From positions 1-50,594 of the forward strand of contig CAIJMU010000029.1 of assembly GCA_903821875.1 (NCBI GenBank): 50,594 bases of DNA, in the 5' to 3' direction. Shown here one piece after another: positions 40,355 to 40,843 of this stretch (the first letter of the stretch is position 1; each line of letters opens with the position of its first letter). The notes beneath the pieces are model-generated. The model ran no database searches and was not told where the DNA came from. It was given only the letters and a program-made list of their open reading frames with translations. The position numbers and the translations under genes were made by a program. The DNA comes from an uncultured Spirochaetota bacterium (GTDB lineage Bacteria > Spirochaetota > Spirochaetia > Treponematales > Rectinemataceae).

Positions 40355-40438
40355 GCCCGGATGGTGAAATTGGCAGACACGCTAGATTCAGGTTCTAGTG
40401 CCGTAACTGGCTTGGGGGTTCAAGTCCCCCTCCGGGCA
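40355..40438 (+). tRNA. tRNA-Leu(CAG)
   Basis: This is an 84-base class II tRNA without encoded CCA. The acceptor stem GCCCGGA (40,355-40,361) pairs with TCCGGGC (40,431-40,437), and the discriminator base is A. The D-arm begins TGGTGAAATTGGCAGACAC. The anticodon stem CTAGA/TCTAG encloses loop TTCAGGT with anticodon CAG (40,389-40,391), reading CUG. The long variable arm is typical of leucine tRNAs. The T-arm is GGGGG-TTCAAGT-CCCCC. The last 18-20 bases recur in the element downstream. Confidence 0.97.
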
Positions 40439-40444
40439 GTGAGA

Positions 40445-40470
40445 AAACGCGCAGCAGCGCGTTTTTTTTT
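40445..40470 (+). terminator. Intrinsic terminator after tRNA-Leu
   Basis: CGCGC (40,448-40,452) pairs with GCGCG (40,457-40,461) around an AGCA loop, flanked by AAAA on the left and nine T residues (40,462-40,470) on the right. It is a textbook bidirectional-looking intrinsic terminator, seven bases beyond the tRNA. Confidence 0.85.
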
Positions 40471-40611
40471 GCCCGGAGGGGGACTTGAACCGAGTCGCCC
40501 GCGCCGCGATAGCGGCGGAAAGCGCACAAGGACGTGCGCGTCAGGGCGACGAGGCGGCCCGGAAGGAGCGATCAGGATGATCGCGACAGGAGGGCAAGTC
40601 CCCCTCCGGGC
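40471..40611 (+). ncRNA. Structured element bounded by copies of the tRNA-Leu 3' end
   Basis: The first 17 bases (40,471-40,487) are the reverse complement of the last 17 (40,595-40,611), and both copy the tRNA 3' end, so the two arms can pair perfectly. Inside, GTCGCCC (40,494) pairs with GGGCGAC (40,544) and encloses GCCGC/GCGGC (40,503/40,512) and GCGCAC/GTGCGC (40,522/40,534). GCGATCA/TGATCGC (40,568/40,578) forms a separate hairpin. The fold would be a branched structure that looks selected. No open frame is present. It might be a non-coding RNA, a remnant of an integrative element, or a mobile DNA hairpin. Expression is unproven; the upstream terminator would block read-through from the tRNA, and no promoter of its own is evident. 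I do not recognise any named family. Confidence 0.55.
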
Positions 40612-40612
40612 A
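40595..40612 (+). repeat. Direct repeat of the tRNA-Leu 3' end (att-like)
   Basis: The 18 bases CAAGTCCCCCTCCGGGCA at 40,595-40,612 exactly repeat the tRNA's last 18 bases (40,421-40,438), 174 bases downstream. Such a direct repeat of a tRNA 3' end is the usual mark of site-specific integration, where an element restores the tRNA and leaves a second copy at its far end. No integrase gene is present here, and AT-rich DNA begins directly after the copy. Confidence 0.75.
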
Positions 40613-40843
40613 TCGCCTAAATGATTTTTTAATAGCAACTTAACGAAAGACCAGAAAACCGGATTTTGAGATTATTCCTTGCATGTTACCCATTTGTTGC
40701 CCAAATGGGAAAAGAGCGATGTGGCTCGGAAGGTCTGGGACGACGGGCGAAGACCGCACATTCCGGTATCCTTGTTCACATAGAATTCCGCATAGACAAA
40801 AAAGCCATAGACTACAGTCCTTCCCGTAGATTGCCGCAATCTG
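40613..40843. other. AT-rich non-coding stretch after the att-like repeat
   Basis: No gene is supportable. Base composition changes abruptly from GC-rich to AT-rich at about 40,615. A short plus-strand frame (from 40,666) has no family features. The stretch would hold the 3' untranslated region of the minus-strand kinase gene. A run of imperfect dyads (around 40,810-40,850) is too weak to call a terminator. Confidence 0.45.

Follow-up and report, generated by a model that had tools for sequence, protein, structure and literature searches.

The window, i.e. the complete stretch of DNA that was analysed (50,594 nt), is contig C29 of the 4.68-Mb draft genome of an uncultured Spirochaetota bacterium. 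It codes for a tRNA-Leu(CAG), which is followed, after a spacer of 31 nt, by an inverted and a direct copy of its own 3' end (the arms) with a structured interior of about 103 nt (X) between them (Table 1). A repeat search of the window returned two perfect inverted repeats, one of 22 nt (40417-40438 / 40470-40491) and one of 18 nt (40470-40487 / 40595-40612), as well as a direct repeat (40421-40438 / 40595-40612). These exact repeats bear out the arrangement of tRNA 3'-end copies around a structured interior that was described in the initial annotation. The element proper (40470-40612) has 143 nt; the earlier length of 141 bases is thus to be corrected, while the structure given with it stands. 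A perfect 17-bp outer stem with four inner stems, as described there, is recovered in the predicted fold under DNA as well as RNA parameters (z = -9.1 for DNA, z = -10.4 for RNA; 0 of 200 shuffles folded as well). The hairpin in the spacer (40439-40469) is not called by a terminator consensus scan of the window.

Table 1. Features of the tRNA-Leu(CAG) locus in the window.
Feature	Position	Strand	Basis
tRNA-Leu(CAG), host gene of the cassette	40355-40438	+	ARAGORN; Rfam RF00005
A, last 22 nt of tRNA-Leu(CAG), source of both arms	40417-40438	+	repeat analysis
T, spacer: terminator-like hairpin AAAACGCGC (40444-40452) / GCGCGTTTT (40457-40465) and T run	40439-40469	+	sequence reading
A', inverted arm: exact reverse complement of the tRNA 3' 22 nt (nt 52-73)	40470-40491	+	repeat analysis
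X, conserved structured interior; the folding strand is the tRNA-sense strand	40492-40594	+	model R1 (127.3 bits), covariation, strand test
P2, stem GTCGCCC (40494-40500) / GGGCGAC (40544-40550), enclosing hairpins P3a and P3b	40494-40550	+	structure/pair counts
P3a, hairpin within P2	40502-40517	+	structure/pair counts
P3b, hairpin within P2, loop AAGGAC	40522-40539	+	structure/pair counts
P4, outer GCCC/GGGC, 3x3 GGA/GGA loop, tandem G.A, inner hairpin GCGATCA-GGA-TGATCGC	40557-40595	+	structure/pair counts
A2, direct arm: copy of the tRNA 3' end from the T-loop (C56) to the discriminator base	40595-40612	+	repeat analysis

About 70-100 nt beyond the direct arm (40683-40710), the window has the words ATGTTACCC and TTGTTGCCC, which are similar to words that precede integrase-like ORFs at two other loci (L070, L032). 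They may be arm-type sites left over from an island that has been lost.

Conserved fold and strand preference

From an unguided MAFFT alignment, RNAalifold derived only a poor structure; the one used here was drawn up manually after the fold predicted for the window and was tested by pair counts. Standard pairs are found in 87% of the cells, and double changes occur in 40 of the 43 pairs. The covariation score is 0.620 on an alignment that was fitted to our covariance model (R1), compared to 0.156 upon shuffling (0 of 500 shuffles reached it) and at most 0.111 in slid controls. An independent MAFFT alignment of 18 sequences scores 0.411 (shuffled: 0.130). The interior fold is proven by this covariation.

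Of 103 copies, 101 (DNA parameters) and 96 (RNA parameters) have a tRNA-sense strand that folds more stably than the complementary strand. G.A accounts for 11.9% of the stem cells, much of it as tandem G.A. G.U contributes 1.3% of the G.U and Watson-Crick pairs, compared to 8.2% in the acceptor and T stems of the tRNAs from the same loci; a high G+C content could be a partial cause of this low value. Most of the interior hairpin loops contain GGA, which is often replaced by CGA, ATGA or GAGA. We infer a strand-specific fold that would form in single-stranded DNA more probably than in RNA, because the stems are rich in tandem G.A and almost devoid of G.U.

In several copies, the arms or hairpin loops of X are interrupted by a REP-like repeat of about 60-70 bp, ATGAGGTCG...CGACGCAT (L214, L218, L223, L229, L230 and L245 from genomes G027/G032; L117 from G094). 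These insertions look as if folded X had been their target.

Distribution and arms of the family

In the genome to which the window belongs, a DNA search detected copies behind tRNA-Leu(CAA) and tRNA-Thr(CGT). When the flanks of the tRNA genes were read, five carriers emerged, each having the 3' end of its own tRNA as arms: Leu(CAG), Leu(CAA), Met, Pro(CGG) and Thr(CGT). In relatives, the carriers are the tRNAs for Val, Pro, Ala, Ser, Gln, Arg, Trp, Glu, Gly, Asn, Asp, Cys and others, and also the tmRNA gene. R1 detects copies in 75 of the 119 genomes of the order, many of which are draft MAGs; the counts are not independent. There are up to 20 copies per genome, a number that is reached in G036, which by its size may be Treponema primitia ZAS-2. 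Across the phylum, 42 of 296 Spirochaetota genomes are positive at E < 1e-8, and these include other orders and classes. Treponema socranskii, other Treponema and further Spirochaetia are carriers according to a pattern scan of named genomes. The same scan returned a single MAG labelled Deltaproteobacteria (tRNA-Ser) and a single MAG labelled Planctomycetota (tRNA-Leu), both with arms from their own tRNA, and for both of which a binning error is possible. Most of the other pattern matches (e.g., L089, L081 and L076) were rejected as chance matches, devoid of structure or of a tRNA. No copies of the family, and hence no vector, were found in the phages, plasmids and viral contigs that were scanned. 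Rfam searches at gathering and at loose thresholds gave nothing beyond tRNA and chance matches, and a description of the spirochaete family was not found in the openly accessible literature that was searched. The spirochaete cassettes are a large, hardly described repeat family behind tRNA and tmRNA genes.

The initial annotation had made its reading depend on homologues that a covariance model should detect, on compensatory base changes, on copies at other tRNA genes with the respective 3' end as arms, and on an interior that is not a fragment of a known element. Homologues are widespread in the order and compensatory changes are abundant, copies with the predicted arms do exist, and the interior is not part of any family that reaches Rfam thresholds. 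What could not be seen from the one locus is that the arms differ from one resident tRNA to the next and that E. coli shares the layout (see below).

Nearly all copies are placed by a simple rule. An upstream tRNA or tmRNA gene on the same strand accompanies 98 of 103 R1 matches from one alignment. The remaining matches, as far as examined, are mostly at contig ends or behind displaced tRNA 3' fragments, and in one (L072), X is flipped between the arms. The order of a unit is tRNA 3' end (A), terminator or other spacer (T), A', X, A. In other copies, the spacer is the terminator of the tRNA itself, which has been duplicated along with the arm. The distance from repeat to repeat is about 140-250 bp, and no gene is found inside in the arrays that were read. 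Arm extents were compared over 96 copies, 88 of which had a clear direct-arm match; in 68 of these 88, the direct arm starts at nt 55-56 of the tRNA, which is in the T-loop. This position is used by many tRNA/tmRNA-specific integrases. The inner end of the inverted arm is at nt 51-54, and its outer end is either at the end of the T-arm or near the end of the tRNA. The element is far beyond chance, since compensatory changes conserve its fold and dozens of other tRNA genes follow the arm rule.

Five displaced tRNA 3' fragments still carry a cassette (L307, L230, L312, L126 and L197; the isotypes are Leu, Val, probably Arg, Glu and probably Ala). This is as would be expected if islands had integrated upstream and had carried the old 3' end away. 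At another locus of the genome of the window (L044 on contig C88, downstream of tRNA-Thr(CGT)), the tRNA-derived arms are the same in units 2 and 3 of the array, but they enclose another hairpin insert (TTACTGAATCGCGCTCAGCCA...GCGCGATTCAG...). Therefore, X is not the sole kind of insert.

Gain, loss and spread of units

One tRNA-Met in G066 has the arrangement A-T-A'-X-A-T, with an exact duplication of the 39-nt terminator. Several polymorphisms emerged when G027 and G032 were compared, the flanks of which are 85-92% identical. The tRNA-Gly(tcc) locus is empty in G032 (tRNA, terminator and flank) and filled in G027. At tRNA-Leu(gag) and at one tRNA-Met, an additional unit is present proximally in G032 and has a different terminator of its own, and the terminator shared with G027 is distal. 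At tRNA-Ser(gct), G032 retains A'-A with X precisely missing, and X is bounded by a 7-bp direct repeat in G027. The order of units in the Pro(cgg) array differs between the two genomes, but shuffling is not proven because the contig of G032 ends there. G063 and G066 differ by one unit at a tRNA-Thr. Their interpretation as a filled and an empty site was rejected: a truncated unit is kept in G066, so that this is a loss or gain of a unit and not a first insertion. Ordinary recombination between direct repeats, with loss of a unit, could account for all polymorphisms seen. None of those compared captures a unit that has newly jumped to another tRNA, and for most of them insertion and loss are not separable.

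When tandem partners were excluded from a comparison of the interiors, 22 of 98 copies had their closest X behind another tRNA of the same genome (shuffles: 3.8), and 27 of 98 had it behind the same tRNA in a different genome (shuffles: 5.3). From this pattern it follows that units are inherited in place and also spread between tRNAs. The X of the window is closest to the one behind tRNA-Leu(CAA) of the same genome (86%).

Relation to RtT and proposed mechanism

The closest known counterpart is RtT (RF00391) of E. coli and other Enterobacterales, which has the same layout. Behind tyrV/tyrT of E. coli, rtT occurs three times, and the tRNA-Tyr 3' end is followed by a spacer, GGGGAAGGAT (inverted), the interior and ATCCTTCCCCCACCACCA (direct). 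These repeats score 134-138 bits with RF00391. RtT-like units are also found behind tRNA-Pro(cgg) in Salmonella, E. coli and Klebsiella, and behind tRNA-Lys in Providencia, Klebsiella and E. coli; their direct arm is the 3' end of the resident tRNA, and the own terminator is duplicated in several of them. The number of RtT copies varies from 1 to 10 across E. coli genomes. For the E. coli tRNA-Lys in the nadA region, there are exact empty and two-unit alleles (L321 versus L326/L327), the filled allele having a 53-bp duplication that consists of the tRNA 3' end and the terminator.

RtT thus shares with the spirochaete family the location directly 3' of a tRNA gene, the succession of spacer or terminator, inverted 3'-end copy, structured interior and direct copy from the T-loop, the tandem arrangement, and arms that track the resident tRNA (Tyr, Pro, Lys). 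The interior words GAGCGAAGCGAG and GGCCCGrAAGG..CGAG-hairpin-CGAG recur in both. The inverted arm of RtT is shorter, however, and the spirochaete family uses nearly all isotypes and the tmRNA gene. RF00391 (gathering threshold 45 bits) matches neither the window nor any of 99 genomes of the order. R1 reaches only 12.9 bits (E 0.16) on RtT, although its two best matches in the sequence set searched are annotated RtT units. The common interior words suggest that the two are likely homologous. An old orphan, the rtT behind E. coli tyrT that was filed as a small RNA, and a large spirochaete family thereby come under one rule, namely that the arms copy the resident tRNA. According to the statement in PMC4986893 that cites Bosl and Kersten (1991), RtT RNA is released from transcripts of tyrT and other tRNA operons and is linked to the stringent response.

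We lean towards the view that the unit is a mobile or recombining cassette at the T-loop of tRNA ends and that it is the same kind of thing as the Enterobacterial RtT repeats. Of the three options offered in the initial annotation, a folded hairpin substrate for a recombinase has the best support, from the strand asymmetry, the tandem G.A and the few G.U pairs as well as from the fixed T-loop junction and the cassette arrays, but the enzyme was not found. A relic of repeated integration fits insofar as units do repeat, with tRNA 3' end and terminator duplicated, but the family is large and living and is not a relic.

The third option, a small RNA that mimics the acceptor/T-arm, is retained as the main rival, which we consider rather unlikely. 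The unit would then be an RtT-like small RNA or a tRNA 3' trailer, its arms being kept by selection for RNA pairing; its GGA loops might bind a protein such as CsrA, or the arms might act on tRNA processing. The consensus of CsrA sites contains GGA, as do most interior loops of the element, the element is on the transcribed strand, and RtT RNA itself has been reported. A weak match to PrrB/RsmZ points the same way, but with 16.2 bits it stays below the gathering threshold of 44 for this model of CsrB/RsmZ-type sponge RNAs. The GGA loops, however, are often swapped for other sequences. Furthermore, tRNA and element often have a terminator-like hairpin between them, G.U is about 7 times rarer than in tRNA stems, whole units are duplicated and lost together with the terminator, and near-identical X occur behind different tRNAs with different arms.

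An ordinary attachment-site relic is disfavoured and improbable. In this reading, phages or islands that target tRNA 3' ends would have left the direct repeats, and X would be a leftover attP arm; direct repeats that start in the T-loop are the trace of tRNA/tmRNA integrases (PMC3146451), remnants of integrase genes lie beyond some copies, an element whose integrase is intact has integrated at one tRNA-Met, and X is found on displaced tRNA 3' halves. The cassettes have in common with attL/attR the 3'-end direct repeat from a fixed crossover point. However, attL/attR pairs lack inverted arms, most copies are not adjoined by an integrase, neither an integrase gene nor cargo is found between the cassette repeats, and a single covarying interior is common to almost all isotypes, to tmRNA and to phyla. 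Islands specific for tmRNA insert at the T-loop of ssrA, and those of Dehalococcoides (PMC3146451) share with the cassettes the 3'-end direct repeat and the repeated insertions behind one gene, but the cassettes are only about 140-250 bp long, are free of genes and have inverted arms and a conserved fold. That the units are true integron attC sites, used by the integron integrase, can hardly be upheld. A predicted strand-biased folded single-strand site, the arrays and the gain and loss of units are in line with integron cassettes, the T-arm GTTCRAN resembles GTTRRRY, and an integron integrase (TIGR02249 over cut-off) is encoded in 43 of the 119 genomes of the order. However, the attC core motifs RYYYAAC/GTTRRRY are not found at the ends (CTTGAAC and GGGCAAG in the window, similar in other copies), the arrays that were read have no gene cargo, and the site is rebuilt from the sequence of each tRNA itself. 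Also, the integrase is not associated with the element (25 of 75 positive versus 18 of 44 negative genomes, p = 0.43), and the 20 copies of G036, if this genome is Treponema primitia, stand against a report that the species has no integrons (PMC3607928). REP/BIME palindromes are likewise short, structured, gene-free intergenic repeats, but the cassettes are strictly tied to tRNA ends and obtain their arms from the host gene.

If the unit is a tRNA-end cassette, its insertion would be site-specific, in the T-loop (nt 55-57), and would supply or recreate the tRNA 3' end and thereby keep the tRNA functional. A', X and A together may form a folded single-stranded DNA site for a recombinase or for template switching during replication. 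Arrays would grow, shrink and flip by recombination between arms, and the arms would be held identical to the tRNA by copying among A, A' and A2. The unit would resemble an integron cassette, with the tRNA gene as attachment site and no gene as cargo. Duplication of the tRNA end and the terminator would be expected upon insertion with target duplication, or if a cassette inserts before the old end. The inverted arm is not accounted for by any standard integrase reaction; candidates are a folded single-strand site like that of integrons, or template switching that copies within the A-T-A' palindrome. More tentatively, one might envisage a gene-free, integron-like system that can use any tRNA or tmRNA gene as attachment site and builds its folded single-stranded DNA sites from the T-arm and acceptor end of the host tRNA; a recombinase would move these sites between tRNA genes, and RtT would be the Enterobacterial branch.

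The long-standing puzzle of the nature of repeats behind tRNA genes, and of the source of the matching tRNA end each time, thereby becomes testable, as does the question whether a cassette system that adopts a single-stranded DNA fold targets tRNA T-loops. Since E. coli has alleles with and without units (tRNA-Lys), genetics is feasible at once.

A dedicated enzyme associated with the family was not found. One candidate, a 394-aa tyrosine recombinase (L116, 96-1280, + strand), is integron-integrase-like with an N-terminal extension and is encoded directly upstream of a tRNA-Asp with a cassette. It was rejected as the cassette enzyme: relatives occur in many genomes of the order, including element-negative ones, and no general linkage was seen.

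One copy behind a tRNA-Thr (L182 from G063) deviates in its inverted arm, which copies the 5' side of the T-arm (GGTACTCGGTTCA) and not the 3' side. This may have a bearing on how the arm arises.
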